Shown: positions 1 through 33,613 of the stretch, one piece after another
How the letters are laid out: each line of letters opens with the position of its first letter
Position numbering within the stretch: position 1 is the stretch's first letter
NCBI GenBank assembly: GCA_026989935.1
Contig: JALSIN010000004.1
Coordinates: 1 to 35,839 of the forward strand
Length of the DNA stretch: 35,839 nucleotides
Origin: Polyangiaceae bacterium
Lineage (GTDB): Bacteria; Myxococcota_A; Polyangia; Nannocystales; Nannocystaceae
Direction of reading: 5' to 3'
Notes under the pieces: model-generated
Database searches by the model: none
Told to the model about the DNA's origin: nothing
The model's input: the letters and a program-made list of their open reading frames with translations, nothing else
Position numbers and translations under genes: made by a program

Positions 1-1026
1 CTGTACTATTGCGAGTTTGCTCTCGTTCGTGACGTTGCGTACCCGAGCAACAAGGTGAATGTCATCCCGAGTGATGATCTCGCTCTTCTCGCCATTCTAA
101 ACTCTCGCACTATGTGGTGGCTGATGCATCGTCACTTCGTGGGGATGAAGGACGGCGCCCTCTCAGTCGATGTCGAAGCGCTCGGCCGACTACCGGTCCC
201 CCCGCTCATGGAGACGATGCATGACACCCTCGTCGACTGGGCCTCAAGGCTGGTGGACTTCGCGGCACACAGACACGCCGGGGAAACCGAGTCGGACGTG
301 GAGCTGGTACCAGACCGCAACATCGCTCTTGCTGAAATGGTCATCGACGCCGTCGTTGCGCAGGCCTTTGGGCTGTCGCAGTCCGAGCGCGAGATCATCA
401 GAGCGTCACTTCCTCAAAGAGACCCAATTGAGGTGGCAACACGCTCCTTGACAAACAGCGACTGCGAGATGCTCGCACGCGAGGCCGATCGCATCGCAGG
501 TACGCATCTGACAGCTGCAGCCGCTTCAGCACGGAGCGAGTTGGAAAGCGGCGCGTGGGAGCGGCCGATGCAGGATCCGCGTGCTGAAGCAGGCGCTGCG
601 CTGGCTGCGGTTCTCAAGACATTGGATTGCCCGACGCCGGCACGTACGGTGCGTCTGGCTACCATCCTCGTCTTGGAGCCGCGGCTCGCGACTCCCTCAT
701 TCGACGCGGCAGAGGCTCGGCTGTGGCGCCGGCTAGTGGGCGCGGAAGCAGAGCCGCTTCCGTCTGGAATCGCGTCCTTCATGCCTCCGGCCGACCACGC
801 GTGGGGTGCGGCGGTCCGCCAGCTCCGAGGAAGTGGGATGCTCGTCGAGGATTCCGCCGCCAACACCTGGGCGCCTGGACCGGGGCTGGACGCCATCGAA
901 ACGGAGGGCTGGCCTGACGGGCGCGCCAGGATGATCCGGCGTCTCCTCCAAGGCCGCGATGAACGTGAGCTGGAGCAGCGGCTCCCCGAAGCTGTCCGGA
1001 GGTGGATCGATGCCGCGGCAGCTTGA
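1..1026 (+). CDS. C-terminal part of a probable Type IIG / Eco57I-like DNA methylase (5' end outside window)
   Basis: The frame is open from base 1 (L-Y-Y-C-E-F...), so the ORF-track start at 55 is an internal GTG and the gene begins upstream. The visible first ~120 residues match the pattern of a TaqI-like/Eco57I C-terminal specificity region: 'LLAILNSRTMWWLM', then 'LGRLPVPPL', then a helical stretch ending 'AQAFGLSQSEREII'. In that family this part recognises target DNA, while the methyltransferase core (NPPY motif, not visible here) lies upstream. About 200 further residues follow. They are helical then wHTH-like in feel, and I do not recognise them. The stop overlaps the next gene by 17 nt, implying one operon. 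GC is lower than in the rest of the window. Alternatives are a BREX-type PglX end or a lone specificity protein. Confident in the broad class, not in the system. Confidence 0.6.
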   Translation: MYYCEFALVRDVAYPSNKVNVIPSDDLALLAILNSRTMWWLMHRHFVGMKDGALSVDVEALGRLPVPPLMETMHDTLVDWASRLVDFAAHRHAGETESDVELVPDRNIALAEMVIDAVVAQAFGLSQSEREIIRASLPQRDPIEVATRSLTNSDCEMLAREADRIAGTHLTAAAASARSELESGAWERPMQDPRAEAGAALAAVLKTLDCPTPARTVRLATILVLEPRLATPSFDAAEARLWRRLVGAEAEPLPSGIASFMPPADHAWGAAVRQLRGSGMLVEDSAANTWAPGPGLDAIETEGWPDGRARMIRRLLQGRDERELEQRLPEAVRRWIDAAAA

Positions 1027-2986
1027 CCTGGTGACGAGGCCTGGGCTGCGGGTGACTCCCAAGCCCAATCGCGCTGAGCCCACCCTCTGGGTGAGGCGCC
1101 TTGTCATCTGGAGCGAGCCGGGCATCGTGCTGCGGGACATCACCCTCCGCCCTGGCCTCAACATCGTGTGGTCGCCTGACCCTGCGGACCGCGGCACGGC
1201 GGACGATGCCACTGGAGCCCTTGGGCACGGGAGCGGGAAGACGCTCTTCTGCCGATTGCTTCGCTACTGCCTCGGCGAGGATCGCTTCGCGACGGATGCC
1301 CAGCGCGACCGGATCGCTCTCGCCTTAAAGGAGGGGATGGTCGGAGCCGAGGTGATTGTGGATGGCACTTCCTGGTCCATTGTCCGGCCTCTCGGCCTGG
1401 GACGAACGACTGCCGCGGTGCCGAACGGCAACCTGGACGAGTTGGCCGCCAGCAAGGTGGACGCCACCGGGATGGCACCGTTCCTGGAGGCTGTCCAGGG
1501 CGCGGTGCTTCCCGAAGAAGTCGCCGCTCTCGTACCTGGAGGAAGCGATCACCGGGCGTGGTTGGTCGCTCTCGCATGGCTGACGCGAGACCAGGAATGC
1601 CGTTTCGGGAGCGTACTCGACTGGCGGTCGACGGCGTCGGAGTCCGGCTCCCCGGCTCGAGGTCTCTCCACGACGAAGACGTTGGACGCCTTGCGGGCTC
1701 TCGTTGGCGCCATCGCCCCCGAGGAGCACGCGCTTCGTCTGGAGGTCGACGAACTACAGCGCGCTCGAACCGCCGCTGAACGGGAGGCTGCCCACCGCCA
1801 ATGGGATGCGGCCCGGAAGCGAACGTGGCTCGCCAAGGCCTTGTCCTTGGACCAGGACGACGTGCCGCCGGGGGACTTGGCGGTCGAGGTCTTCAAGAAG
1901 ACGGCGCGAGAGCAGCTCGCCCGCGTCGCGCAGGTCGATCCGTCCACCGACGTGGCGGACCTCGAAGCCCTCCGGACCGAGTACGACCACGCGAGGACCC
2001 GTGTTGAGGCTCTCACCAAGGAGGTGGCCGAAGCCGACGCGCGGATGCCGGAGATCGAGCGACTGGTGACGCACATCAAGGGCGAGCTTCCCGGCCTGTC
2101 GTTTTCAGCCCTGGAAGCCCAGCAACCCATCTGCCCGGTCTGCGAGGTCCCCATCGACCGTGCCCTCGCCAAGGGCTGCAAGCTTTCCCACAAGCTGCCG
2201 GACCTGGACGAAGTGCGGAGGCGCAGAGAGCAGCTTCAAAGAGACCTCGACGAAGAGACGAAGCGTTTGGCGACTAGCAAGACGAACAGGGCGCGGGCCG
2301 CCGATGAGCTTGCTACCGCTACGCAACAAGCGGATGCACTTCGCCAACGGCTGCGTGCTGCCGAGCGTGCGCGAGAAGACCGGAGGGACGCCTGGTACAC
2401 GGCGAGGCGCCTGATCGACGACGCCGACGGGTTTGGAGAGTTGCTGCACGCGCGAAATGCAGCGACGGCCGAGGCCCATCGGTTGGACTCTGTCATCGAA
2501 GCGAAGCGTGAACAGGCTGCCGCATTCCGTGACGAGCGGGCCCGGGTGTTCCGCCGCATCTCCGCTGCGTTCGACGCCATTGTGCGCGACCTCGCGGGCG
2601 AGGAGGCGTCTGGGCGCATCGCCCTCGATGGGAACGGCTTGCACCTCACCGTCGAGCTTGGCGGCGAGCGGTCCACCGCCGCCATCGACTCGCTGAAGGT
2701 GCTCGCCTTCGACTTGGCCGTCCTGTGCGTGAGCATAGAAGGGAGCACGCATCTCCCGGCGTTCCTCGTTCACGATAGCCCGAGAGAGGCGGACCTCGGA
2801 CTCAGCGCCTACCATCGCCTGTTTCGACTCGCCCGCGCACTCGAAGATGTCGGAGAGGATCCACTCTTCCAGTACATCGTGACCACGACAACCCGGCCAC
2901 CCGCAGAGCTGAACACCGAGCCGTGGCTACGACTGACCCTCAAGGGCGCCCCGGCAGATCGTCGCCTACTTCGAAAGAATCTTTGA
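1010..2986 (+). CDS. Rad50/SMC-like ATPase with zinc-hook motif, defence-associated
   Basis: The protein is 658 aa from the ATG at 1010. I prefer this to the track start at 959 because GGAGG lies at 998-1002 with 7-nt spacing. It has an N-terminal ATPase lobe with Walker A GHGSGKT (residues 72-78). A long charged, helix-rich middle follows, with CPVC at 375-378 at its centre and a further Cys near 391, the layout of a Rad50 zinc hook between two coiled-coil arms. A C-terminal lobe carries 'GGERSTAAIDSLKVLAFD' in the signature position and Walker B/D-loop 'FLVHDSPREAD' (Asp589). Such proteins dimerise on DNA and couple ATP hydrolysis to sensing or remodelling DNA ends. The 17-nt overlap with the methylase-like gene suggests translational coupling and a shared complex. 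It is not obviously DndD, LmuB or JetC. ATPase class confident, system unknown. Confidence 0.72.
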   Translation: MPRQLDLVTRPGLRVTPKPNRAEPTLWVRRLVIWSEPGIVLRDITLRPGLNIVWSPDPADRGTADDATGALGHGSGKTLFCRLLRYCLGEDRFATDAQRDRIALALKEGMVGAEVIVDGTSWSIVRPLGLGRTTAAVPNGNLDELAASKVDATGMAPFLEAVQGAVLPEEVAALVPGGSDHRAWLVALAWLTRDQECRFGSVLDWRSTASESGSPARGLSTTKTLDALRALVGAIAPEEHALRLEVDELQRARTAAEREAAHRQWDAARKRTWLAKALSLDQDDVPPGDLAVEVFKKTAREQLARVAQVDPSTDVADLEALRTEYDHARTRVEALTKEVAEADARMPEIERLVTHIKGELPGLSFSALEAQQPICPVCEVPIDRALAKGCKLSHKLPDLDEVRRRREQLQRDLDEETKRLATSKTNRARAADELATATQQADALRQRLRAAERAREDRRDAWYTARRLIDDADGFGELLHARNAATAEAHRLDSVIEAKREQAAAFRDERARVFRRISAAFDAIVRDLAGEEASGRIALDGNGLHLTVELGGERSTAAIDSLKVLAFDLAVLCVSIEGSTHLPAFLVHDSPREADLGLSAYHRLFRLARALEDVGEDPLFQYIVTTTTRPPAELNTEPWLRLTLKGAPADRRLLRKNL

Positions 2987-3012
2987 CCGATGCCCAGTGG
3001 AGACGCGACACG

Positions 3013-3090
3013 ATGAGCACGATCAGCAACACCTTCCGCACTGGAGAGTCGAGCGGCCCGAGACCGCAGTTCGGATACGTTGATGCGTGA
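3013..3090 (+). other. Possible 25-codon leader ORF between the ATPase and AlbA_2 genes
   Basis: An ATG at 3013 has GGAGA at 2999-3003 upstream and encodes MSTISNTFRTGESSG... for 25 residues. Its TGA (3088-3090) lies inside the start of the AlbA_2 gene, whose ATG is at 3083. An even shorter ORF (ATG 2990, 8 codons) ends in an ATGA overlap with it. This could be a coupling leader, the remnant of a lost gene, or chance. Nothing about function can be read from it. Confidence 0.18.
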
Positions 3091-4538
3091 CCTCGATCAC
3101 CAGATCGCCGCCGGCGAGTCCGAGACGCTTGAGCTGAAGCGCTCGACCGCGCAGCTCGGCGCCGCTGGCAAGACGCTCTGCGCCTTCCTCAACGGCCAGG
3201 GTGGCAAGGTGGTCATCGGCGTCGCTGACGATGGGAAGATCGTCGGCCAGAAGGTCTCGGACAAGACGCGGCGCGAGATCGCGGCGATGCTCGACCGCTT
3301 CGAGCCGCCCGCGCCGGTGGATGTCGAATACGTGGACCTTCCGAGGAGCAACAAGAAGGTCATCGTGCTCTGCGTCCAGGCGCAGGAGGAGACCAGGCCC
3401 TTTGTCTTCGACGGGCGGCCGTACCAGCGCGTGCAGAGCACGACGTCGGTCATGCCCCAGGAGCGCTACGACCGGATGCTCCTCGAGCGGGCCCACGCGC
3501 GCCATCGGTGGGAGAACCAGCCCGCGGTCGACGTGACGCTCGATGACCTCGATCATGAGGAGATCCTGCGCACCCGCGAAGCCGCGATCCAGCAGCGGCG
3601 CATCTCGGCCGGCACGAGCACCGACATGGGCGACATCCTCGACCGGCTGGGCCTGCGGCGCGAGGGCGTGATCACCCAGGCCGCGCAGATCCTCTTACGG
3701 CACGCGCTTTCTGCCCGACTACCCGCAGGGCATGCTCAAGATGGGGCGCTTTCGCGGAACCAAGATCACCGGCGACATCCTCGACAACCGCCAGGAGCAC
3801 CTGCATGCCTTTGCCATGGTCCGCGAGGCCATGGCCTGGCTCGATCGCACCCTGCCGCTGGCCGCGCACTTCCCGCCCGGCAAGATCTTCCGCGAGGACC
3901 GGCTGCCCGTGCCGCCCGAGGCGCTGCGCGAGGTCCTGCTCAACGCCGTCATGCACCGGGACTACTCGCGGCCGAGCAGCTACGTGGCCGTGGCCGTCTT
4001 CGACGACCGGATCGAGGTCCGCAGCATGGGTGGGCTGCCCAGCAGCGTCACCGCCGAGTCGCTCTCGGGCGAGCACCGAAGCGTGCTTCGCAACCCGCTC
4101 ATTGCCGAGGCATTCCACCGCACGGGCGCGGTCGAGGTGTGGGGCCGCGGCACCAACCGGGTGTTCGAGGCCTGCGAGCGCTACGGCCTCGAACCGCCCA
4201 CCTTCGCGGAGGACGGTGGCTTCGTGATCGTCACCTTCCGGGCGCAGATCGGGCCCATCCCCCAAGTCGAGGGACCAAGTCGGGACCAAGTGGGGACCAA
4301 GTCGGGCCTAAGTCGGCACCAGGTCCAAGTCCTTGAAGAAGCGTTGGAGCCTCGCGCCATCGGGGATCTGATGCAGCTCTGCGGTCGGAGCAACCGCACC
4401 AAGTTCAGGGACCAAGTGATACGCCCCCTCCTCGAGGCCGGCCTGCTCGAGATGACCATCCCGGACAAGCCGCGCAGCTCGCAGCAACGCTATCGGACGA
4501 CCGAGGCCGGCAAGCGGTTGCTGAAGAAGGACAAGTGA
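3083..4538 (+). pseudogene. AlbA_2 (Schlafen-type) / RecG-like ATP-binding protein, broken by a single-base frameshift
   Basis: Two track ORFs (3080..4336 and 3732..4538) are halves of one ~485-codon gene. The N-terminal half has the AlbA_2 signature ('ESETLELKRS', 'CAFLNGQGGKVVIGVADDGKI'). The C-terminal half has 'MGRFRGTKITGDILDN', 'LREVLLNAVMHRDYSRPS' (GHKL-like ATP-binding part of this family) and a winged-helix tail. The break is at CTCTTAC (3692-3698). Removing one T (3695/3696) restores 'QILYGTRFLPDYPQG', the expected family sequence, so an inserted base explains everything. The ATG at 3083 is chosen over TTG 3080; no strong ribosome site is visible. McrB begins 15 nt after its stop. 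The family is common as a regulator or accessory near restriction genes. A sequencing indel would make this an intact gene. Confidence 0.75.
4262..4328 (+). repeat. 11-bp tandem repeat (about 6 degenerate units) inside the AlbA_2 gene
   Basis: The core unit GGACCAAGTCG recurs with exact 11-base spacing (equivalent bases at 4263, 4274, 4285, 4296, 4307, 4318), with 0-3 changes per unit. It encodes the linker between the ATP-binding part and the terminal winged helix. Because 11 is not a multiple of 3, successive units are read in rotating frames, and a change in unit number would shift the downstream frame. Confidence 0.85.
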
Positions 4539-4553
4539 AAGGAGACCGCCCCG

Positions 4554-6047
4554 ATGAGCATTGAGTCACTCGCTTCGATCATCGCCGGCGGTCAGCCGCC
4601 AGCGGTCAGCCGGGACACGCTCGCCGAGCAGACGCGGGACGCGATCGACGGGCTCTTTGGCAGCCGATACCAGGCGCGGTCGCGCTACTCGGCGCGGGTG
4701 GCGCTCATGCCCGGCGCCGATGCGGTGTCGTTTGCCGGGTTCGTACACGAGGACAGCCCGACCAGCGGCGTGTACGGCGGGATGTCGCTTGTCTGGTTCC
4801 CCATCGAGGCGACGGATGACGAGCCCGCCGGAAGCCTGCTGACCTTCGTCTGCGGCACGCGCGGCCTCGCGCCTGACGAACAGATCCTGGGTCGGCCGGG
4901 GCACGCTAGGCACCTTCAGGCGCTGCGTCGCTACCTGGGCAGGGAGCACGGAGCGGCGGTCTGGGTGAAGCACGACCCCACCAACCTCACCGAGCCCTTC
5001 CCCAAGGTGCTCCGTCCCAGCTTCGCCCGCTTCAAGCAGGTGCTCGACCGCTATGGAAACTACATCTACGCGGCGGTCCTCGTGCCCCGCGACTCCGAGC
5101 GCGCCCGCGGCGTCGTGTCGGCGTTCGTCGACTTCTACGCCTGGGAGCGCGGCTGGACGCCACTCAAGGCGGCCAAGCCCGAGACCGACGCGCTGAAGAA
5201 CGCGCTGCGCGGGCACCTCTTCCCCCGTGTGGGCAAGGACGAGGTGCACGCGCTGCTGCGGGAGCGGCGCTTCGTGATCCTCCAGGGCCCGCCCGGTACC
5301 GGCAAGACTCGGCTTGCCGCAGAACTGCTGGCGAGCAGGTTCGAAGGCAGGGGCATGGCCGTGCAGTTCCATCCCGCGGTCACCTACGAGACCTTCGTGG
5401 CCGGGATCTCGCCGGACGTGGAGCAGAGCGCGCTGCGCTTCCAGGTCAAGGGCGGCTGGCTCGTCGAGGCGGCCCGGCAGGCGAAGGAGGGAGACTTTCT
5501 CCTGGTCATCGACGAGATCAACCGGGCCGACCTCGGGCGCGTGCTCGGCGAGGCGATCTACCTCTTCGAGTCGCGCGAGATCGCCCGCGGCGAGGGGCGC
5601 ACGGTCAGGCTGCCGCACGGGCTCGACGACGGCACGGACACGCTGGAGATCCCCCAGGGGCTCTTCCTGCTCGGCACCATGAACAGCGCCGACCGCTCCA
5701 TCGCCATCCTCGACCTGGCGGTGCGGCGTCGGTTTGCCTTCGTGGACGTGTGGCCCGATATCGGCGTCGTCGCCGACCAGGGCCGACAGCTCGCCACCGA
5801 GGCCTTCGGGCGGCTGCTCGACGTTTTTGCCCAGTACGCGCCCGACGACGCGCTGGTGCTGGTCCCCGGCCACGCATACTTCCTGGCCGACAGCGACGAG
5901 GAGCTCATTCGCCGGCTGCGCTTCGAGCTCATGCCGCTGCTCATCGAGTACCTCCAGGAGGGGCGGCTCGGGGCCTGCGAGAGCGAGCTGCGCGCCTATC
6001 TCGACTGGCTCGAAGGAGAGATCGCCCGGCATGGCGCAAGCGCGTAG
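4554..6047 (+). CDS. mcrB: McrB-like AAA+ motor subunit of a Type IV (McrBC-like) restriction system
   Basis: The protein is 497 aa from the ATG at 4554, with AAAGGAGA at 4538-4545. The N-terminal ~190 residues ('FGSRYQARSRYSARVALMPG...', 'VYGGMSLVWFP') resemble the MrcB-N/DUF3578 type of DNA- or modification-reading domain; this part is less certain. The AAA+ core has Walker A GPPGTGKT (245-252), Walker B LLVIDEINRAD (D320, E321), the McrB-type sensor 'GTMNSADRS' (376-382) and 'DLAVRRRFAF', the arginine-finger region. McrB proteins form GTP-driven hexamers that translocate DNA and activate the McrC nuclease. The gene starts 15 nt after the AlbA_2 gene and overlaps mcrC by 17 nt, so the two products are surely made together. 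Codon use is less GC-extreme than in the recBCD region, fitting acquired DNA. Confidence 0.88.
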   Translation: MSIESLASIIAGGQPPAVSRDTLAEQTRDAIDGLFGSRYQARSRYSARVALMPGADAVSFAGFVHEDSPTSGVYGGMSLVWFPIEATDDEPAGSLLTFVCGTRGLAPDEQILGRPGHARHLQALRRYLGREHGAAVWVKHDPTNLTEPFPKVLRPSFARFKQVLDRYGNYIYAAVLVPRDSERARGVVSAFVDFYAWERGWTPLKAAKPETDALKNALRGHLFPRVGKDEVHALLRERRFVILQGPPGTGKTRLAAELLASRFEGRGMAVQFHPAVTYETFVAGISPDVEQSALRFQVKGGWLVEAARQAKEGDFLLVIDEINRADLGRVLGEAIYLFESREIARGEGRTVRLPHGLDDGTDTLEIPQGLFLLGTMNSADRSIAILDLAVRRRFAFVDVWPDIGVVADQGRQLATEAFGRLLDVFAQYAPDDALVLVPGHAYFLADSDEELIRRLRFELMPLLIEYLQEGRLGACESELRAYLDWLEGEIARHGASA

Positions 6048-7521
6048 AGCACGGCGTCGTCAGCCGGTCTTCGTCTCGGCGTGGAAGCCGAAGCAGCGGC
6101 CCTTGCTAACGCTTTCGGATCAGGGCGCGCCGGTGACCATCGAGCCGGGGCTCTTCGGCATCGGCGGGCGGGACCGGAGCTGGAACGCCCACGCCGAGAA
6201 CTTCATCAGCGCCAACCGCCCGCAGCTCGCGGCCCTCGACGTTCGACCCGAGCTCGCAGCAGAGACCCACGAGATCGCCCTGCGACTTTGCCCGGGCGGC
6301 ACGGTGGGCGCCATCCCGCTGCGCACACCCGACACGCGCAAGGTCGCCGGCGGCGTGGTGGTGCGCCCGCGCTTTGGCTGGGACGGGATCGGTCCACTCT
6401 TGCAGCAGATCGGCTGGGTCGCCTCGCCGCGCGTGCTCGAGATGCCGCTGGTTCCCGGGAGCGCCCGCGAGGTGCCGCCCTGGGTGCTGGCAGGCCCCGT
6501 GCTCCAGCGGCTGGCGAGCCTGCTGCGCGAGATCCGAAAAGGCTTTCGCATGCACGAGGAGGTCCGCCAGGCGCCGCGCGGGCAGATCCTCTGGCAGCGC
6601 TACGTGACCGAGCAGATGAGCCGCGGTGCCTTCCACCAGGTGCCGTGCCGTTTCCCGGAGCTTGGCCCAGACGCGCTACTACGCGCCTACCTGCGCTGGG
6701 GCCTCGAACGAGTGCACCGGTCGCTCGTGCCCTACGCCGTGATCGACCTGATCGCGCGGCGGCTCTCCGAACAGGCCGAGGGGTTGCTCAACAGCCTGAA
6801 GGACACCAGCGCCCGCGCCCCCGACCGCCGAACGCTGGACCAACTCATGCGCGGCGTCGGCCTGCCGTCGGCCGTGCTCCAGCGAGGCCTGCAAGCGCTC
6901 GGCTGGATCGTGGACGAGCGGGGCCTCGCGGGTGCGGCCGAGACCAACGGGCTCGCCTGGGCCTTACCCATGCATGAGCTCTTCGAGCGCTGGGTGGAGC
7001 ACGTGGCGTGCATCTGGGCCCGCGAGTTCGGCGGGGAGGTGCTCACCGGACGATCCGACGAGACCGTGGTTCCGATCGAGTGGGATCGCGGCGCCCACGG
7101 CAGCCTGCGCAGCCTCGTGCCCGACCTCGTCGTCCGCCACCAGGATCACGTCTACGTCATCGACGCCAAGTACAAGGGCCACTTCCAGGAGTTCGACGAT
7201 GCCCGCTGGCTCGCGCTCTCCAAGGAGCTTCGCAACGAGCATCGCCACGATCTGCATCAGGTCCTCGCCTACGCCTCGCTCTTTGGCGGCGCCGAGATCA
7301 CCGCGATCCTCGTCTACCCCATGTTCGAGCGAACTTGGTCCCGGCTGGCCGAGGTCGGGCGGACCGTGATCCAGGCATCGCTGTCCGGGGCTGGGCGACC
7401 GATCCGCCTCGCGCTTGCTGGCGTCCCGGTTCGGCTGCCCGAGGGCGTGTCCGTCGCCACGGTGGCGCGGACCCTCGACGCGCTGCGCGCATCCGAGACC
7501 CTGGCCGGAGAAGCGGCATGA
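6031..7521 (+). CDS. mcrC: McrC-like PD-(D/E)xK nuclease subunit
   Basis: The true start is the ATG at 6031 (MAQARRARRR), preceded by GAAGGAG at 6012-6018. The track ORF beginning at 5734 just extends through mcrB in another frame. The protein is 496 aa. The C-terminal third carries the nuclease core: 'LVPDLVV' (D365), then 'VYVIDAKYKG' (D378, K380), the PD...D-x-K pattern of McrC. A later 'HDLHQVLAYASLFG' supplies the conserved Q-x-x-x-Y of this fold. The N-terminal half ('GTVGAIPLRTPDTRKVAGGVVVRPRFGW') is the part that docks to McrB in the family. It overlaps mcrB by 17 nt, and its TGA overlaps the next ATG (ATGA at 7518). All expected catalytic residues are present. Whether it acts on methylated, other modified or plain DNA cannot be read from sequence. 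Confidence 0.85.
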   Translation: MAQARRARRRQPVFVSAWKPKQRPLLTLSDQGAPVTIEPGLFGIGGRDRSWNAHAENFISANRPQLAALDVRPELAAETHEIALRLCPGGTVGAIPLRTPDTRKVAGGVVVRPRFGWDGIGPLLQQIGWVASPRVLEMPLVPGSAREVPPWVLAGPVLQRLASLLREIRKGFRMHEEVRQAPRGQILWQRYVTEQMSRGAFHQVPCRFPELGPDALLRAYLRWGLERVHRSLVPYAVIDLIARRLSEQAEGLLNSLKDTSARAPDRRTLDQLMRGVGLPSAVLQRGLQALGWIVDERGLAGAAETNGLAWALPMHELFERWVEHVACIWAREFGGEVLTGRSDETVVPIEWDRGAHGSLRSLVPDLVVRHQDHVYVIDAKYKGHFQEFDDARWLALSKELRNEHRHDLHQVLAYASLFGGAEITAILVYPMFERTWSRLAEVGRTVIQASLSGAGRPIRLALAGVPVRLPEGVSVATVARTLDALRASETLAGEAA

Positions 7522-7581
7522 AGGGCTACGTCGCCGTCACCGATCCCGGGTGGTACGAGCACCTCGCCCAGGAGCCCGGTC
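7518..7581 (+). pseudogene. N-terminal remnant of a probable HNH endonuclease gene, cut off by the IS3 element
   Basis: An ATG at 7518 overlaps the mcrC stop (ATGA). It encodes MKGYVAVTDPGWYEHLAQEP before the reading frame runs into the insertion sequence and stops at 7614-7616. This beginning ('...VTD.xWY..L...P') resembles my recollection of HNH-type restriction endonucleases that start this way. With only ~22 residues the assignment is tentative. The coupled start shows a real fourth gene of the operon. No matching continuation is seen beyond the element's right end, so the remainder is gone from this locus. Confidence 0.5.
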
Positions 7582-7604
7582 TGGCTCTGCCCCGATTTCT
7601 TGGA
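7582..7604 (+). repeat. Left terminal inverted repeat of the IS3 element
   Basis: The 23-base end TGGCTCTGCCCC...CTTGGA matches the reverse complement of 8319-8341 at 19 positions. It directly follows the HNH gene remnant. Confidence 0.85.
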
Positions 7605-7625
7605 CAACTCCGATAAGGCAAAAGG

Positions 7626-7949
7626 ATGTTCCGAAGCATGTCCAAGAAGGAGTCCTCAGGAGCACGAAGGCGGTTTACCGCCGAGCACGAAGCCCAGGTC
7701 GTTCGGCTCTGCCAGCAAACCGGGAAGACGGCGTACGCGGTCGCGACCGAGCTTGGCCTTGCTCCCAACTCGGTCACGAGGTGGGTCCGCCAGGCGCAGA
7801 TCGATGCGGGCGGTGGGGGCGAAGGTCCGCGGACCACGGCCGAGCGCGAAACGTTGGCGGCGCTGCGACGTGGGAACCGAACGCTCCGCCAGGAACGAGA
7901 CAACCTGCGGAAGGCCATCGTGCTTTTCGCAAGGGCGGGTACGGCGTGA
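7626..7949 (+). CDS. IS3-family transposase OrfA (DNA-binding helix-turn-helix protein)
   Basis: The protein is 107 aa from the ATG at 7626; an ATG at 7638 (MSKKESSGARRRF) is an equally good start. The N-terminal half is the IS3/IS911 helix-turn-helix: 'RRRFTAEHEAQVVRLC', then 'YAVATELGLAPNSVTRWVRQA'. The C-terminal half is the leucine-zipper-like 'LRRGNRTLRQERDNLRKA'. In intact elements OrfA is fused to OrfB by a -1 frameshift to make the transposase. Here the following -1 frame (GTG at 7946) starts OrfB-like sequence that is quickly lost. OrfA alone can bind the ends but not transpose. Confidence 0.85.
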   Translation: MFRSMSKKESSGARRRFTAEHEAQVVRLCQQTGKTAYAVATELGLAPNSVTRWVRQAQIDAGGGGEGPRTTAERETLAALRRGNRTLRQERDNLRKAIVLFARAGTA

Positions 7950-8318
7950 CCGCAGACATGCACGTTGTCACCACCGAGGCCAAGGCTTCGCTCACCGCGG
8001 TCTGCAAGGCCCTCGGAGCCCGCCTCGCAGCGACTACAACAGACGGACGCGCAAGCCCAGTCCGCGACGATTCGACACCCGGCGGCTCGACGTCGAGGCT
8101 GCAACGCCGACCTCGCACTTCAGGCCCTCGACCAGGCCGTGGCACGACACGCCCCGGGGCCGGGCCTACTCGGCCACACCGATCGGGGCTTCACCTACAC
8201 AGCGGACGCCTATCCGAGACGACTTCGCGACAGGCAGGCCGTCGTCCGGGTACAAAACCCCGGACCAAGTTCATCGACGCACCACGGCGCGAGGGGCCCG
8301 CGCTGCGTACGCAGCCAT
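7946..8318 (+). pseudogene. Remnant of IS3 transposase OrfB (DDE integrase), deleted and frameshifted
   Basis: The piece starting at 7946 ('[19 protein letters not shown]') resembles the start of OrfB. A short '[12 protein letters not shown]' follows in another frame. The sequence then jumps to '[18 protein letters not shown]...[13 protein letters not shown]', which in intact IS3 OrfB lies around the second catalytic Asp. The C-terminal catalytic Glu region is absent. At least one large deletion and several frame changes are needed, so it cannot encode an active enzyme. Confidence 0.75.
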
Positions 8319-8341
8319 TCCAAGAGATCGGGGCAACTCCA
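8319..8341 (-). repeat. Right terminal inverted repeat of the IS3 element
   Basis: The sequence TCCAAGAGATCGGGGC...TCCA is the partner of 7582-7604. It ends 8 bases before the stop codon of the convergent - strand gene. Confidence 0.85.
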
Positions 8342-8349
8342 TGCGGGCG

Positions 8350-9579
8350 CTACGTCTCCTCTGGAAGACCGAGCCTCGCGGCCAAGACCTGGCGTACGAA
8401 GACCGCTTGTGCGCGATCGGTTGCCACGAGTTCCAGGACACGGGCCCGCGTCTGGGGCTCGCATCCCAGGATCGTGGCTGCCTTCATGGCGTAGTCATAC
8501 GCCTCGTGGACGTCGAGATCGGTGACGTCGTAGCCCCACCCCTCGGCGAGCCACCGCAGCGACGCCAGCGCGACCTCGAGCGCGAAACTGGGATCGTCGG
8601 CCACGTGGTCTCGCGCAGCTCGATTCAGGGTCCTCGGGTCGCAGGGTGAGCGGTCGGCCAGACGCACCGCGAGGTCACGGAGCCCAAGTCGCCTGGCCGT
8701 GGCGAACCATTTGCCCTCGTCGCCGGGCGTGGACCGGATCAGGTCGGCGAGGATTTCCACCGGATCCTTGCTCGGATACTTCCTGGCGATGGTACGGAAG
8801 GTGGCGAGCCGGGTCGTGGCCTGGTTCGCCAGGATGGCGTAGCGGTCGTACGCCTCTTCGATGCGGCCGGCGGCGAGCAGGATTTCCTCGCACAAGCAGG
8901 CGACACGGATCGCGTCGCTCGGACCGCACGAGGCCTCCGCGTACTCGATGGCCTCATCGACACGACCCATGGCAGCGAGGGCACGCACGCCGTACCCGCG
9001 GTCGGGCCACCATCGGAGGCGCGCGCGTTCGATCAGGTCGAGCAGTTCCTCGTACCGCCCCGCGGCCAACAGGCAGGACAGACACGCCGAGGTGCCGTGG
9101 AAGAAGCCGCCGAGCTTCGGATCGGATCTCGACGCCATCTCGACGAAGGGCGCGAGCCGATCGGCCCACTCCGAGGCGACCTCGGGCGACCCGCACAGCT
9201 CGCCCCATGCGTCGCCCAGGGCCTCGATGTAGGGGATCGTGTCGGCCTCGTGGGCCGCCCACAGCCTCTCGAGCCAGCGTTGCCGCGTCTTCGCATCCAC
9301 CGGGGCCCGGGCGATGATGGGCACGACGGCGTCGATGGCCCTGTTCACCGCGGCGCCGATGGCGCCGGACGAACTATCGACCCGCTCGAGTGCCGGCGAC
9401 ACCTTCTCCAGGAAACGTACCGCCCCCTCCGCAGCGACGACGGGCTCCTTGCGCGCCACCTTCTTGATCTCGGAAACGGCCTCCTCGATGCGCTTGATGG
9501 CCGGCTGGGAACGCCACCCGAAGGCCCGCGCCCGAAAGCGCGCCGCGAAGGTCCACCGGTGCCGCCCTGCCTTGGTCAT
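8350..9579 (-). CDS. Conserved-looking alpha-helical repeat protein of unknown function
   Basis: The protein is 409 aa from the ATG at 9579 ([22 protein letters not shown]); the longer track ORF to 10131 runs through another gene. It is soluble, with no signal peptide. After a charged N-terminus ('[20 protein letters not shown]') it consists of helix-loop-helix units typical of a TPR/HEAT-like solenoid ('[18 protein letters not shown]', '[19 protein letters not shown]', '[15 protein letters not shown]'). It resembles a widespread uncharacterised family that I remember only by such motifs, and I cannot assign a reaction. Its ATG overlaps the TGA of the upstream gene (ATGA at 9576-9579), so they form an operon. 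Its stop lies 8 bp from the IS right end, so the last residues might be altered by the insertion. Confidence 0.75.
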
Positions 9580-10154
9580 GCGCCCCCCGGGTGCTCGACG
9601 AACTCGCGTCGAATCGCTGGGAAACGCCCACACCGCGAACGAATCCCGGCGCCCCACCGACGGCGATCGGGCGTCGGTTCGATCGCCGCGCAGGCCGCGA
9701 ACCGTTGGACCGCACGCCCTTGCAACTCGTGCGCTGCAAGGGGCGCCTCGTCCAGGCATTCGCAACCCCCGCACGCGCCGTCGGTCACGACCTCGGCCGC
9801 CGCCTCGGATGCCGCGAGGACGGTCTTCCCGTCGGTGTCGAAGCCGAGCATCTCCTCGCCCATTGTACATGGACCAAGGTCGATCTCTCCACCGCCCACG
9901 GCGATGCGCCACGCTCGAAGGATCTGGGCGGCGGCCGGGCCCTCCTTGCCGAGCACCGCGCTCGATCCCCGTCGCAGGCCATCGTCGATCACCGGCGAGT
10001 CCGCGTCGCCCGCACGTCGGGCGGGTTCGACGAAAACGGACACTTCGGACACCTCGCCGCGAGACGAACCGCGACGTATCCACCTCGATCCACGAGCAGC
10101 CGCGCGATCGATGACGAGCCTCGTGACGCATCCGGGCATACCGTCACCGAACAT
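9576..10154 (-). CDS. Hypothetical protein, coupled upstream partner of the solenoid protein
   Basis: The ORF is about 192 aa from an ATG at 10154; an ATG at 10139 (MPGCVTRLVID) is an alternative. I do not recognise it. The best evidence that it is real is the ATGA overlap with the downstream gene. The middle ('SEVSVFVEPARRAGD', 'ILRAWRIAVGGGEIDLGP', 'DGKTVLAASEAAAEVVTD') reads like a folded alpha/beta protein, with two CGGC-like Cys in 'TDGACGGCECLDE'. There is no signal peptide or membrane segment. The opposite-strand ORF 9591..10280 is Arg/Pro-rich and taken as its shadow. No clear ribosome site is visible. Confidence 0.5.
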   Translation of the reverse strand: MFGDGMPGCVTRLVIDRAAARGSRWIRRGSSRGEVSEVSVFVEPARRAGDADSPVIDDGLRRGSSAVLGKEGPAAAQILRAWRIAVGGGEIDLGPCTMGEEMLGFDTDGKTVLAASEAAAEVVTDGACGGCECLDEAPLAAHELQGRAVQRFAACAAIEPTPDRRRWGAGIRSRCGRFPAIRREFVEHPGGA

Positions 10155-10218
10155 CCGCCGATGAGGTCGCAAGGTCCGTTTCTCTCTGGGGACCAAAGGG
10201 GTACGAACCGGGGGGGGC

Positions 10219-10236
10219 CGGGGGCATCGTCCCCCG
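10219..10236 (-). terminator. Possible GC hairpin after the RND pump gene
   Basis: CGGGGG-catcgt-CCCCCG forms a perfect 6-bp stem with a 6-base loop. It lies 4 bases beyond the RND stop codon on the - strand. No T-run follows, so if it terminates transcription it would need a factor. In DNA this GC-rich it could also be chance. Confidence 0.3.
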
Positions 10237-10240
10237 CAGG

Positions 10241-12110
10241 TCAGCACTCGCCGGGGCGGATGCGGAAGACCAGGGCGTAGAGCACCGGGACGACGAGCAG
10301 GGTCAGCGCCGTACCGAAGCCCAGGCCGAACACGATGGTCACCGCCATGGACGCGAAGAAGGCGTCCGACAGCAGCGGCAGCATCCCCAGCATCGTCGTC
10401 AGCGCCGCCATCACCACGGGTTGCACGCCGCATCCACAGGTCCACCATGATCTGCGGGCGCGTCGAGGCGGGGAAGAAACTCTGCTCCACACCGCCGAAG
10501 CCCACCACCGCCGCCGCCAACAGCCCCACCGCACCCAGCGCCGCCCACCCCCGGCGCGGCAAGAGCACCCCCAGCAACCGCCGCACCCCCCGACCCATGA
10601 AGCCGCCGTCGGATGCCTCGCCGGCCTGCTTCGGCGGGCGCAGGAACATGGCGCACAGCACGGGCGTGACCGTCACCGCCGTCACCCAGCTAAGGCCCAG
10701 GGCATACATGATGACGTAGTACAGCGACCGGCAGTACTCGCCCGTGCCGTCGTTCGAGGTGCCGATCGCCGCGAAGCTCAGGATCGCGATGGCCGTCGCC
10801 ATCAAGAGCGGCACGGCCGTCTGCCGCACGACCGCCTCGGACGCCGCCTCGACCCGCTGCCCCCGCGCCATGCCCGCCAGGGTGCCGTCCACCACCACGA
10901 TGGCGTTGTCCACCAGCATCCCCAGCGCGATGACCAGCGCCCCCAGGGAGATCCGTTCGAGCAAGATCCCCTGGGCGTACATCAACAGGAACGTGCCGCA
11001 GATCGTCAGCAGCAGCACGGCCCCGATGAGCAGGCCGCTGCGCAGCCCCATGAACAGCAGCAGCACCACCACCACGATGGCCACGGCCTCCACCAGGTTC
11101 ACCACGAACGCCCCGATGGCCTCGGTCACCGCCTTGGACTGCAACGCGATCACGTGGAACGACACGCCCAGCGGCTGCAGATAGGTGATCTCGGCCATCT
11201 TGCGCTCGAGCGCCTGGCCCATGGTCACCACGTTGCCCCCCGGCGCCGTGGAGATCGCAAGCCCCACCGCCGGCGCCCCGTCCACCCGCAAGAGCACGTC
11301 GGGCGGATCCCGAAACACCCGCCGCACCCGCGCCACGTCGCCCAGGCGCACCAGCCCGCCCCCCGGCGCCGCCACCTGCAGGTCCGCCAGGTCCGCCACC
11401 GCGTCGCCGGCCTGCACCGGGACGAAACGCACGTACGACGGACCCACCGCCACGCGCCCGGCATCGGCCACCAGGTTGCGCGCGCGCACCACCTCGGCGA
11501 TGGCCGCCGGCGAGCCCCCGAGCTGCGCCACCCGGTCCGACTCGAACGCCACCTCCACCGCCTCCTCGCGCGCGGCGAACAGCTCCACCTTCGCCACGTC
11601 CTCCACCACGAGCAGCTCCTGCTGCAGGCGCTCGGCGTAGACGCGAAGCTCCGACAGCGAGTACTCGTCGCCGGTGATCGCCACGAACACCCCGTACACG
11701 TCGCCGAAGTCGTCGCGCACCAGCGACGGTCCCGCCCCGGGCGGCAGCCGGCCCTGGGCGTCGCCCACCCTGCGCCGCAGCTCGTCCCACACCTGCGGCA
11801 AGGTGGTGCGGTCGTACTGGTCGCGGATCGTCACCGTCACGATGGATCGGCCCGGCTCCGACCGCGACCGCACGTGGTCCACCTGGGCCATGGCCTGCAC
11901 GGCGCGCTCGATCTCGTCGGACACCTCGCGCGCCACCTCGTCGGCCGTCGCGCCCGAGTAGGGCGTGACCACCACCGCGTCCTTGATTGTAAACTCCGGA
12001 TCCTCCAGGCGGCCGAGCCGCGAAAACGCCCACAGGCCCCCCACCAGCAGCAGGAGCGCGAACACGAGCACGACCGTGCGGCCGCGCAGGGCCAGCGTCG
12101 CGGGGTTCAC
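10241..12110 (-). pseudogene. RND-family efflux pump (HAE1-like inner-membrane transporter), internally deleted
   Basis: The GTG start at 12110 overlaps the membrane-fusion gene stop (GTGA). About 559 codons encode a normal RND first half: TM1 'VVLVFALLLLVGGLWAF', 'YSGATADEVAREVSDEIE', the first periplasmic loop, TM2-TM6 including 'ALGMLVDNAIVVVDGTLAG', and 'QIMVDLWM' at the start of the second periplasmic domain. The frame then breaks near 10425-10433, and a different frame supplies the last ~62 residues of an RND pump ('VVMAALTTMLGMLPLL', 'GLGFGTALTLLVVPVLYAL'). About 395 codons (second periplasmic domain, TM8-TM10) are missing and the join is out of frame. RND pumps normally have about 1,020 aa and form proton-driven trimers exporting drugs or lipophilic compounds. 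This one should be non-functional unless the gap is an assembly fault. Confidence 0.85.
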
Positions 12111-13213
12111 CGGGCCCGCTCGACGCTCCCGTAGAGATCCTCGAACCGCCGCACCACCTGGCCTTCCGAAAGCTCGTGCACCCCGCTGGTCGCGATCTCG
12201 TCCCCGGCCGCCAGCCCCGAGACGACCTGCACGCGATCGCCACGGACTTCCCCGAGCTGCACCGGCGCGGCCGTCACGGCCAGGGTCTTCGGGTCGATCT
12301 TCCACACCCGCGCCTCGCCGTCGGGCGTGGACCACACGGCCTGGGCGGGCACCTCCAGCGGTGCGGCTGCGGCCGCACCGGCAGCCTTCACCGGCTGCAC
12401 CTCGATGGTGGCCGTCATCCCCGGCAAGATGTTCACCCCCTCCGGTGCCTCGATGCGCCAGGTGACCTCGTAGGTCCCGGTCTCGGGGTCCGGCGACGTG
12501 GCGGCCTCGGAAAGGCGCGCCGGGACCGTCTCGTCCGGCAGGGCGTCGAACCGCGCCGTGGCCTGGATCCGGTCGGCGAGCGCTTCGAGGGAGGCAGCAT
12601 CGCCGGCTTGGGCCATGTCGCGCTCGGGCACCTGCGTAACCACCTCGAGCCCGCCCGCTCCCTGCAGCACCACCACCGGCTGCTTGGCCTGGACCGCCTG
12701 GTGGTTCTCGACGGCCACGCGGGCCACGACGCCGGCAAACGGCGCCCGCAGCACCGCATCCTCCACCGCCTTGCGGGTGAGCGCGGCCTCGGCCTGGGCC
12801 TCGCCGAGCTGGCGCCGGGTGACGTCCTGCTCGGCGGCGGACACGATCCCCTTGGCCCCGAGCTCCCGCGTGCGATCGTGCTCGACACGGGCCTGCCGCA
12901 GCCGCGCCTGCGCGCCGAGCAGCTGCGCCCGCAGGTCGCGGTCGTCGAGCCGTGCAATCACCTGCCCCGCCTCGACCTTCTGACCCTCCGTCACCGAAAG
13001 GGCCACCAGCTTGCCGGGCACCTCGAAGCTGAGCTCCGCGTGCTCGGCCGCCTGCACGACGCCCGGCCAGCGCAGCACCCTCCCGGAGGTCTCTCCCACG
13101 ACGAAGGTCTTGACGGGCCGGGCGACCGGCGCGGCGGGCGGGGGCGCCTCGGTCTCCCCGCAGCCCGCGGCGAACACGACCCCCAGGACCAGGGTACGAA
13201 CGGCTCGGCGCAC
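12107..13213 (-). CDS. RND efflux periplasmic adaptor (membrane-fusion) lipoprotein
   Basis: The protein is about 368 aa from the GTG at 13213 (MRRAVRTLVLGVVFAAGC); a GTG at 13240 would add nine residues. A short basic start, a hydrophobic stretch and lipobox FAAGC show a lipid-anchored periplasmic protein. It has the AcrA/HlyD layout: a lipoyl half-motif 'GKLVALSVTEGQKVEAGQVIARLDDRD', a helical hairpin ('AQARLRQARVEHDRTREL...VSAAEQDVTRRQLGEAQAEAAL'), a second lipoyl half ('LRAPFAGVVARVAVENHQAV'), and a beta-barrel with 'NILPGMTATIEV'. It bridges an RND pump to an outer-membrane channel. The partner pump directly downstream is a pseudogene and no TolC-like gene is visible, so the protein may be orphaned or serve another pump. 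Confidence 0.88.
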   Translation of the reverse strand: MRRAVRTLVLGVVFAAGCGETEAPPPAAPVARPVKTFVVGETSGRVLRWPGVVQAAEHAELSFEVPGKLVALSVTEGQKVEAGQVIARLDDRDLRAQLLGAQARLRQARVEHDRTRELGAKGIVSAAEQDVTRRQLGEAQAEAALTRKAVEDAVLRAPFAGVVARVAVENHQAVQAKQPVVVLQGAGGLEVVTQVPERDMAQAGDAASLEALADRIQATARFDALPDETVPARLSEAATSPDPETGTYEVTWRIEAPEGVNILPGMTATIEVQPVKAAGAAAAAPLEVPAQAVWSTPDGEARVWKIDPKTLAVTAAPVQLGEVRGDRVQVVSGLAAGDEIATSGVHELSEGQVVRRFEDLYGSVERAR

Positions 13214-13418
13214 CCCCCGGACATAGCACGGCGGCGGCACTCCCGAAACCGTACCCCCTGCCCGATCCGGGACGGGTCGCCGGCGGGCGCGCCGGCCGTG
13301 TCTCGAACCTTGGACGCAGCCGTCCGTCCCGAACGGTCCCTTCGCGCCGGGCCGTTCACCCCCCGACGCTCCCAGGCGGATCGAGCCCCGCTGCTATGGT
13401 TTGCGCGGCTGCGCCGCC

Positions 13419-16400
13419 ATGGCCCTGATCGTGCACCGCGCCCACCGGGTCGAGCGCCTCGTCGAGGCGCTGGCGGCGTTCCTCGACGCCCATCGGCCCG
13501 CGGACCCGTTCGAGCCGGTGCCCGTGCTGGTGGGCAGCCGCGCGATGGCCTCGTGGCTGCGGCACGAGCTCGCCACGCGCCGCGGGGTGGCGGCCGGCCT
13601 CCTGTTGCCCCTGCCGCGCCGGGGGATCACGGCGGCGGTCACCGCCTGCCTGAACCGGGCCCCCGCCATCCGGATCGAACCCGACCGCTCGGATCCGTTC
13701 GACCCCGACCCCCTCGCCCTGCGCCTGTTGGAGATCCTCCACGCGGAGAAGGACGGGGCACCGGCCGAGTTCGCCCGCGCGATCACGACCCGCGAGGAGG
13801 ACGGCGCCGTCGTGGCCGACCGCCGAGCCTTCGCCTTCGCCCGGCAGGTGGCGCAAGTGCTCGACCGGCTGTTGTACGAGGCCCCGGATCTCGCTGGTCG
13901 CCTCGCCGACCGCGGGCGCCCGGTCGAGACGTTCCTCGCGCGCCTGCTGCGCGCCGCCGGCGCCCTCGACCATCCCGAAAGTCCGGTCGTGCGTCACCAC
14001 GCCCTTTCCGAGCGCGCCGCCGCGCCGGCCGGTCGTGCCCCACCCCACCTGCTGTTGTTCGGGATCTCCACCCTGCGCCCCGGCGACCGCGCCCGCCTGC
14101 GCCGGCTCGCACGCATCCTCGACGTGCACCTGTTCTCCGTGGTGCCCACGCCCCACTTCTTCCTGACGGGGCCGCACGCCCGCGCGGGCGAGCATCCCGA
14201 AAACCCCCTGCTCGCGGCGCTCGGGCACGGCAGCCGCGCCCTGCTCGACCTGGTCACGGAGGAGGAGGGCTTCGACCTCGACGTGCGGGAGCGCGACCAC
14301 TTCGCCGAGGCCCCCGCGCCGGCCTCGCTGCTGCACAGACTCCAGAGGTGGATCTTCGACGCCGGTCCGCTCCCGGAACCCGGCGCCCCTCGCTGGGCCG
14401 CCGACGACTCCATCACGTTCCACGCCGCCCCCGGCGCGTTGCGCCAGTGCGAGGTGGTCCGGGACCTGTTGATGGCCGCCTTCGCCGAGGACCCCACCCT
14501 CATGCCGCGGGATGTCGTGATCCAGACGCCGCAGCCCGCCGTCTACGCCCCGCTGCTTTCGCTGGTGCTCGGCCGCCGCGTTCCGGTGGAGGCGACCGGT
14601 CGGCAGACCGACCCCGAAGCGCGCGTCTTTCCGGCGATCCCCGTGGCGGTCAGCGACCTCGGCCTGCGCGAGCGCAACGTCGCGGCCCAGGTCCTCCTGA
14701 CCCTGCTGGCGCTCGCGGCCGGCCGCCTGCGGGCGCCCGACGCCGCCGACCTGTTCGGCCTCGAAGCGGTGCGACGCGCGCTCGACGTCCCGCCCGACGG
14801 CGCCGAGACGTTCGCCCGCCTCCTGGCCGAAAGCGGCTTCACCTGGGGCGCGGACGCCGAGGACCGCCAGCACACGCTCGACGCCGCGGACTGGATGCCG
14901 GCGGGGGCGCGCGACCTGGTGGACGACCACGGCTCGGCGCGGTTCGCCGCCGGCCGGCTCGCCCTGGGCGCCGCGCAGCACGACCCGGACCCGCTTTGGG
15001 TGCAGCCCGCGCCCCCGCCGCTGGCGACCGTCGCGCCGGTGGAGGCGCCGGCCGGCACCCCGCAGCGCCTCGCCGCGAGCCTGGCCATGGGCCTTCGCAT
15101 GCTCGAGCGCACCCGCGAGCGGCTCACCCGCCCCCGGACCGCCGAGGCGTGGGCGCGCGTCCTCGCCGAGACCCTCGACGCCTGGTGCGACCTGCCGCCC
15201 GAGCAGGCGTTCTTGCGCCGGGAGATCGACGACGTGCTCGACGCGTTCGCCCGCGACGGCGAGGGCGCCGCCGTGCGGCTGGAGGTCGGCGCGGTGCTCG
15301 ACGAGCTCGAGCGGCGCTGCGACCGGCCGCTGCGCGCCGGCCGCCCGGCCACCGGCGCGGTCACGATAAGCGGCCTCGAACCCATGCGCGTGGTGCCGTT
15401 TCGCCTGGTGGTGCTCGTCGGGATGGACGACGGGGCGTTCCCCCGCACCGAGGCCCGACCCTCGTGGGATCCGCTCGCCGGCGACCCGCGCGTCCTGGCC
15501 CGGGCCGACGTCGATCGGCACATCCTGCTGGAGGCGATCCTGTCGGCCCGCGACCGCCTCGTCGTCACCTTCTCGGGCCGCGACCCACACACGAACGAGC
15601 CGCGGCCCGCGGCCGTGCCCATCGAGGAGCTCGTCGCCACCCTCGGCACGCTCACCGGCGCGGCGCGCTCCGAGCTCGTGGTGGAGCACCCGCTGCAGCC
15701 CTACGCGCGCCGGGCCTTCGAGCCGGGCCCGACCCAGAGCCCGGATCCAGGGTTCTTCGCCATCGCGCAGCGCCTCGAACGGCTCCGCACGGGCGGCGGG
15801 GCCCCAGCGGCGCGGGCGGACGGCCTGTGGGGCGCGTACGACACGCTTCGCCTGCCCCCGCCACCCGCGGCGGCCGCCGGCCTCGACCTTCGCGAGCTGA
15901 CGAGCTGGCTGTACCGGCCCAACGACACGCTCGTCCGGCAGCGCCTCGCCCTGTGGCCCGACCGCGCCGCCCCCGAACCGCCCGACGTGGACCCCACGGA
16001 CGCCGGCGCGCTGGACCGGGCGCACGCCGCGGCCCTGTTCGAGGACCTCCTGGCCGGCCGGGACGTCGCGGTCCAGCGCGTCCACCGGCGCCTGTGCGCC
16101 GAGGGGCAGTGGGTGCCCGGTGCGGCCGGGCGCGGCGCGTTCGACGACACCGTCCGCGCCCTTTCGGCCTTCGCGCGCGCGATCGAGGCCCTCGAACCGG
16201 CGACCGTGTCGCTCCCCGTGCACGTGGCGTGGCCCGACCGCCCCACCCTCCCCTCCGTCGCGGACACGTTGACGGGCCTGGTGGGCCGCCACGACGGCGC
16301 CGCGACCCTGTTGCTGCCCCTCCACGGCACGAAGACGCCGAGCTCGTACGTGAAGCTGCGCGCCATGGTGATCGCCCTCGTGCTGGCAGCCCGGCCGGGC

Positions 16401-32568: not shown

Positions 32569-32606
32569 CCGGCCGGGGCCGGCGGTCCGTGGCATCATGG
32601 GGGGTG

Positions 32607-33536: not shown

Positions 33537-33613
33537 CCCGGCAGGAGCCCTCGCAACGACGTTCCGAACCGGCGGTTCGGAATCCCGGGCGCGCGCCGAC
33601 ATCGAAGGACGAG

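Follow-up and report, generated by a model that had tools for sequence, protein, structure and literature searches.

The window, by which we mean the whole stretch of 35,839 nucleotides analyzed here, is identical with the entire contig C4 of a 4.47 Mb assembly in 471 contigs; named relatives point to a Myxococcota-like genome. It begins with two overlapping frames on the plus strand. The first (positions 1 to 1026) is open at its 5' end and encodes the last 341 residues of a PglX/MmeI-like N6-adenine methylase that is truncated by the assembly, as the window spans all of contig C4. Taken alone, the fragment has a weak type IIG profile as its sole match (E 0.005). It aligns to positions 1163-1493 of 1494 in a methylase HMM and is 37-50% identical to methylases in operons from Mesorhizobium and Paraburkholderia. 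Profile searches identify its full-length relatives as Eco57I/MmeI-type N6-methylases, and by HMM and identity it is assigned to the ARMADA type I methylases. The second frame (1010 to 2986) starts with ATG and specifies an SMC/Rad50-like ABC ATPase of 658 amino acids with a long coiled coil and a central hook. It features a Walker A motif GHGSGKT (residues 72-78; 1223 to 1243), the residues H73, G76 and K77 of which are invariant across 26 sequences, a CPVC zinc hook (residues 375-378; 2132 to 2143) that is present in most, though not all, relatives, and a Walker-B-like HDSPRE sequence (residues 588-593; 2771 to 2788).

Methylase stop and SMC start share the 17 nucleotides ATGCCGCGGCAGCTTGA (1010 to 1026). 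The overlap is exactly 17 nt in 45 of about 85 related pairs and 4-38 nt in most of the remaining ones, and because it recurs in this way the arrangement is not a matter of chance. The original prediction had described a methylase end overlapping a CPVC-hook ATPase by 17 nt, had proposed a module that couples a modification enzyme to an ATPase of the DNA-end-sensor type, and had raised the question of whether the pair is kept as a unit. Both frames and their motifs are indeed seen in the sequence, and the pair is conserved across relatives rather than restricted to this genome.

The window SMC is LmuB-like. PADLOC models for Lamassu LmuB match it with a best E of 1e-17, PDC-M68B is matched as well, and the similarity to DUF2326 stays below the cut-off. 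When the structural model was compared by Foldseek, Lamassu LmuB structures were retrieved at E 2e-13 and 4e-13, the best match being the YydD/YydB model 9a6c, while a search with the SMC profile against PDB sequences returned largely coiled-coil noise. The earlier view, which set Lamassu ATPases apart as not normally coupled to such a methylase, was wrong or incomplete on this point. Relatives of the SMC (28-66% identity) were collected from 80 loci; of 379 genomes from the phylum 13 contain them, as do 10 plasmids, and none were present in the phage records searched. In five Polyangium-like loci (L192, L193, L194, L195 and L196) SMC relatives of about 36% identity were found with no ARMADA genes adjoining, and two neighbors of SMCs of this kind matched no defence profile.

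The gene pair is followed on the plus strand by a regulator-type gene (3080 to 4538) with an AlbA_2 N-terminal half and a HATPase_c_4/Fic-like C-terminal half that lie in different frames, as would be expected of a single gene affected by a frameshift or by an error in the assembly. In locus L199, described below, the SMC gene is likewise followed by an AlbA_2 gene. Further downstream, profiles identify an McrB-like AAA+ ATPase (4554 to 6047, plus strand) and an McrC-like protein (6030 to 7521, plus strand, start approximate) of an McrBC pair. All three genes are at most tentative members of the system. In Nocardioides (L165) and on plasmid MP1 of Deinococcus radiodurans R1 (L164), McrBC likewise adjoins ARMADA type I. 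The GC content is 0.656 in positions 1-2986 and 0.746 in positions 8000-35839, and the lower value of the pair is in line with horizontal acquisition. The window further contains a frame of 2906 aa whose product has UvrD-type helicase domains (12176 to 20896) and a protein with sigma-70 regions 2 and 4 (32597 to 34225).

The ARMADA type I operon and its probable upstream part in the same genome

In about 80 relatives, the gene pair terminates a longer operon consisting of genes for a YprA/DruE-like helicase, a RapA/DrmD-like helicase, the PglX/MmeI-like methylase and the SMC, often followed by an HNH gene. On annotated plasmids the corresponding products are a DEAD/DEAH helicase of about 1720 aa, a helicase of about 930 aa, an N6 methylase of 1440-1620 aa and the SMC, again often with HNH behind it. 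A tblastn survey found this order kept in nearly all loci with sufficient upstream DNA, and a methylase-ATPase pair standing in isolation is excluded by the longer conserved operon. Pfam searches on relatives yielded DEAD, Helicase_C and MZB for gene 1, SNF2 for gene 2 and Eco57I and MmeI for gene 3. In one relative, PADLOC classified gene 1 as DruE-like, gene 2 as DpdE/DrmD-like and gene 3 as DrmMI- or IIG-like, and the BrxHII profile also matches the second helicase in a relative.

ARMADA type I has been defined by a YprA helicase, a BrxHII/RapA-like helicase and a PglX-like methylase (Bell et al., 2025; PMC12458937), and we assign the first three genes to this type because their order fits that definition. 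The idea of an undescribed defence operon therefore holds in part: the locus is a predicted defence operon, yet not a wholly undescribed one, since its backbone is the named ARMADA type I. In the main text of the same article, SMC is nowhere mentioned and HNH occurs solely in a reference title. As far as that text goes, antiphage activity was assayed for type II only, where protection came about without abortive infection and all four genes were needed (PMC12458937). HNH genes are present in 57 of 72 loci with an SMC and in 5 of 15 without one, and absent from the window. As SMC-less ARMADA loci carry HNH too, it is not SMC-specific, which weakens its candidacy as a dedicated effector of the SMC. 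Two loci show peculiarities of their own. The methylase on D. radiodurans plasmid MP1 is split, being interrupted by an IS630-like element, and on the Nocardioides plasmid pNOCA01 (L165, 1685 to 24076) DISARM genes drmA and drmB lie shortly upstream of the ARMADA type I operon.

The genes that are missing from C4 reside at the end of another contig of the same genome, C91 (locus L113). The first gene of that operon (6747 to 11972) encodes a YprA-family helicase of 1741 aa with DEAD, Helicase_C and MZB domains and 39% identity to the Mesorhizobium helicase. A gene for a RapA-like helicase (SNF2) ends at 14821, and the first 1084 residues of a methylase with matches to Eco57I and N6_Mtase run off the contig end. 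The motif pairs TGSGKS and DELH, VGIGKT and DEAH, and CGSGHF and NPPW are intact. In this genome, the BrxHII/RapA-like helicase and the PglX-like N6 methylase are separated by an ATP-binding gene (14821 to 16585), in which we recognized by eye a DUF4062-like N-terminus and a HATPase-like C-terminus. About 170 aa of the methylase (residues 480-650) have no counterpart in the alignment. The search for an effector upstream of the pair, as originally suggested, leads to a candidate in the C-terminal end of the first helicase (ArmA), which resembles a Vsr/DUF559-like nuclease: it carries a RPDFLY...IDGPHH pattern and matches DUF559 (PD-(D/E)XK/Vsr-like) at E 0.006, below the Pfam cut-off.

Extension of the operon upstream led to C91, which shares no overlapping sequence with C4, and the join of the two contigs is therefore tentative. 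C91 stops at about position 950-970 of the methylase profile and C4 picks up at about 1125-1163 of 1494, such that some 150-190 residues are apparently missing in between. The genome yielded only a single N-terminal and a single C-terminal methylase piece, both lying at contig ends and in the right orientation, from which we infer that C4 continues C91 as one operon. The two could also be different loci, because the methylase core on C91 is closest to that of L069 (86% identity), the SMC of which is just 36% identical to the window SMC. In that case the window pair would represent a second, separate system. With the contigs not overlapping, such an arrangement is conceivable, but we consider it improbable, given the single, fittingly oriented N- and C-parts and the frequency with which near-identical cores have swapped the add-on in contiguous loci.

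A proposed docking domain that accompanies the SMC

The last approximately 165 residues of SMC-linked methylases (541 to 1023 in the window, plus strand) constitute a domain that became apparent from tail comparison and that we term docking, or adaptor, domain. Measured from the end of the profile of SMC-less methylases, the tails of 14 SMC-less enzymes lie between -24 and +8 residues and those of 72 SMC-linked ones between 106 and 199. The length groups are disjoint, with the domain present in 72 of 72 SMC-linked and in none of the 14 SMC-less methylases, and it was seen only on proteins whose gene is followed by an SMC gene. A docking-domain HMM is positive for 77 of 86 proteins encoded just upstream of an SMC, a count that is partly obtained by construction as 34 of the 77 served as seed.

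The identity of the docking domain tracks the SMC and not the methylase. Across 64 loci, Spearman correlation between domain and SMC identity amounts to 0.90 (0.89 when controlling for the methylase core), while the core and the SMC correlate at 0.28 (partial correlation -0.01). In 222 pairs of loci the cores are at least 75% identical and yet the SMCs at most 45%; the pair L070 and L032, for example, has a core identity of 95% with 24% for the domain and 29% for the SMC. On the tree of methylase cores, SMC presence takes nine changes, at least six of which are forced by well-supported branches. Taken together, co-variation, the mismatch between cores and SMCs and the changes on the tree lead us to conclude that domain and SMC are exchanged together, as one add-on, between methylase backbones.

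This unit is also found outside ARMADA. In loci L018, L019, L022, L024 and L045, the gene overlapping the SMC gene by 17 nt carries the docking domain at its C-terminal end, and an HMM in whose training these sequences had no part recovered the HsdS-linked docking domains at E 1e-41 to 1e-49. In L045, Pfam gives the order HsdR, HsdM, DUF1016, HsdS (Methylase_S), SMC and a DUF5655/NucS-like protein. Methylase_S was confirmed in this locus. L018, L019, L024 and L042 match it in ORF arrangement, the last of them without a clean upstream frame; L022 is a short contig. The six HsdS-linked SMCs form one clade nested within the ARMADA-linked ones, so a single transfer to HsdS of type I restriction-modification (RM) is indicated. 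On a contig labeled viral (L199), a type III RM operon encodes an SNF2 helicase, DUF4391, Mod and Res. Here, the docking domain follows RE_endonuc in Res (residues 1067-1218, E 2e-29), the gene overlaps that for an SMC with the N-terminus MGRQTELF, and the AlbA_2 gene is next downstream. In a BREX type 2 locus (L197), the tail of PglX (profile positions 1344-1402 of 1428) is lengthened by about 160 aa and its gene overlaps an SMC gene situated before pglZ, brxD and brxHI. HHalign related this extension to the docking domain weakly (E 0.028, 55 columns, probability 1.8), too weakly to establish homology. The type III and BREX cases comprise one locus apiece, and no further cases came to light when the SMCs of the BREX, type III and HsdS loci were run against viral contigs. 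In two genomes (L222, L223) a related SMC is preceded by a 235-aa ORF of no known family, possibly a further carrier. Domain and SMC form a portable module, LmuB-like in its SMC and tentatively LmuC-like in its domain, that sits on the ARMADA methylase, on type I HsdS and on type III Res.

The docking domain has no match among Pfam, PADLOC and PDB sequence profiles. AlphaFold2 predicts helices and a winged-helix-like hairpin with a pLDDT of 91. When this model was compared with 350,542 PDB chains by Foldseek, ranks 1 and 2 were taken by the LmuC chains 9ny5_C (171 aa) and 9uxh_D (170 aa) from two independent Lamassu structures, at E 0.43 and 0.80 and TM 0.44 and 0.37, i.e. not significant by E-value. 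HHalign of the domain against eight LmuC sequences from Lamassu loci of the phylum gave no significant match. The fold match gains weight because the SMC is independently LmuB-like, so that LmuC is the partner to be expected, and we tentatively regard the domain as LmuC-like.

The SMC itself carries a motif Q-x-[DSEN]-[LMIF]-[FLMIV] at its N-terminus (QLDLV in the window, 1019 to 1033, plus strand). In a set clustered at 60% identity, it is present in 19 of 26 sequences, and of 808 stretches of twenty residues from other parts of these proteins 8 contain it, with the proviso that the sequences are related and the counts not independent. It was not seen when true LmuB N-termini were examined by eye. 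The overlap with the methylase gene alone does not explain the motif, which persists whether the genes overlap by 11, 14, 17 or 23 nt and, in some loci, even where they do not overlap. The SMC model is disordered at this site (pLDDT 47). This QxDLF-type motif resembles the bacterial sliding-clamp binding motif and, judged by this resemblance, might tether the SMC to the replication clamp.

A possible plug-in sensor and its relation to known defence systems

In our preferred reading, to which we assign a probability of about 0.72, an ARMADA type I operon has here acquired a portable add-on, namely an LmuC-like docking domain on the methylase and an overlapping gene for an LmuB-like SMC docked as a sensor. 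An SMC dimer would sit on the modification/recognition subunit via the docking domain and, like Lamassu and Rad50, would sense DNA ends or replication structures. For LmuB of Lamassu, sensing of DNA ends or hairpins has been proposed (PMC10586767). Sensing might then license the helicase-nuclease, or a nearby HNH protein, to act against DNA without host methylation. For DISARM, DrmAB has been found to bind single-stranded DNA that has 5' overhangs, and unmethylated DNA stimulates its ATPase more strongly (PMC9142583). The whole would be a helicase-nuclease gated by methylation, to which an SMC sensor is docked.

Two further readings concern the role of the SMC. It could be a Lamassu-type alarm that is merely co-transcribed and acts on its own through an effector such as HNH, AlbA_2 or another nuclease, the methylase tail being a device for translational coupling or expression. 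The conserved gene overlap, the frequent HNH gene after the SMC and the SMC relatives without adjoining ARMADA genes in several Polyangium-like genomes agree with this. A coupling device, however, needs no such domain as the tail forms, which is confidently folded, co-varies with the SMC and is kept on HsdS and Res, and HNH also accompanies SMC-less ARMADA; we therefore judge independent action unlikely. Equally little credence is given to an SMC that regulates the methylase or the host system, for example by guarding the host from self-attack, instead of sensing invaders. Its position on the modification/specificity subunit in both ARMADA and type I RM would suit such a regulator, as would the existence of SMC-less ARMADA systems, in which the core dispenses with it. 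The closest characterized relatives, LmuB proteins, are nevertheless regarded as invader sensors (PMC10586767), the repeated exchange of the add-on fits immune turnover, and the type III carrier is the Res subunit and not a methylase.

If the docked-sensor reading is extended to all carriers, a more general principle emerges that we rate as about an even bet: an effector-less LmuC-LmuB sensor cassette would pass from one modification-restriction system to another, unrelated one (ARMADA methylase, type I HsdS, type III Res and probably BREX type 2 PglX) with its docking domain fused C-terminally to the subunit for DNA recognition or cleavage, and methylation-based discrimination of self and non-self would thereby be supplemented by structure sensing, perhaps at the replication clamp. 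That relatives of the add-on are found on other restriction-type systems suggests that modification systems can take up an immune sensor as a plug-in. Methylation-based immunity and structure sensing by SMC proteins are usually treated separately, and the cassette would join both physically. If this is true, defence systems are built from exchangeable sensors, the docking domain provides a handle for finding further hybrids, and LmuB-type SMC sensing becomes testable, with the related ARMADA type II acting without killing the host.

With known ARMADA type I, the locus shares gene order, the Zn-binding region and McrBC nearby, and the putative Vsr/DUF559-like end of the first helicase would be a further common feature; it differs by the SMC and the C-terminal docking domain of the methylase, neither of which appears in the main text of the ARMADA article, where the fourth gene of type II is described as RelE-GajB-like (PMC12458937). 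DISARM class 1 has in common the DrmMI-like methylase and, by PADLOC profile, the DrmD-like helicase, but split DrmA/DrmB and the DrmC PLD nuclease are lacking here and the helicase is DruE-like. No PLD gene occurs within the operons examined, that of Mesorhizobium lying further upstream and outside the operon. Because of the missing genes, DISARM proper and Druantia proper are excluded. The DUF499-centered, BREX-related Hma system likewise unites helicase, methylase and ATPase in one operon, but its ATPase is annotated as DUF499 and its methylase as m5C, as opposed to SMC and N6 methylase here. The HmaC profile did not match the SMC-type ATPase, the HmaA match of the helicase is weaker than those to DpdE and DrmD, and Hma is excluded on account of the different ATPase. 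None of the Wadjet profiles (JetA kleisin, JetB KITE, JetC SMC, JetD Toprim nuclease) matched the window genes in positions 1-7949.

Resemblance to Lamassu (LmuA-LmuC-LmuB; ABC-3C, DdmABC) extends to an LmuB-like SMC that measures about 650 aa and has a zinc hook, to overlapping genes and to an LmuC-sized domain that precedes the SMC and has LmuC as its best, though not significant, fold matches. Leaving the accessory HNH aside, an LmuA profile matched neither the window genes beside the SMC nor the four-gene operon of Paraburkholderia. While LmuC is encoded by a separate gene in Lamassu, the putative LmuC-like part is here fused to methylase, HsdS or Res, and the SMC has an additional N-terminal QxDLF-like motif and HDSPRE as Walker B. 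None of the papers searched describes a fused LmuC-LmuB-like cassette that is portable between restriction-type systems. The parts are known, and the novelty provisionally lies in the fusion and in the portability of the cassette across restriction-type systems.
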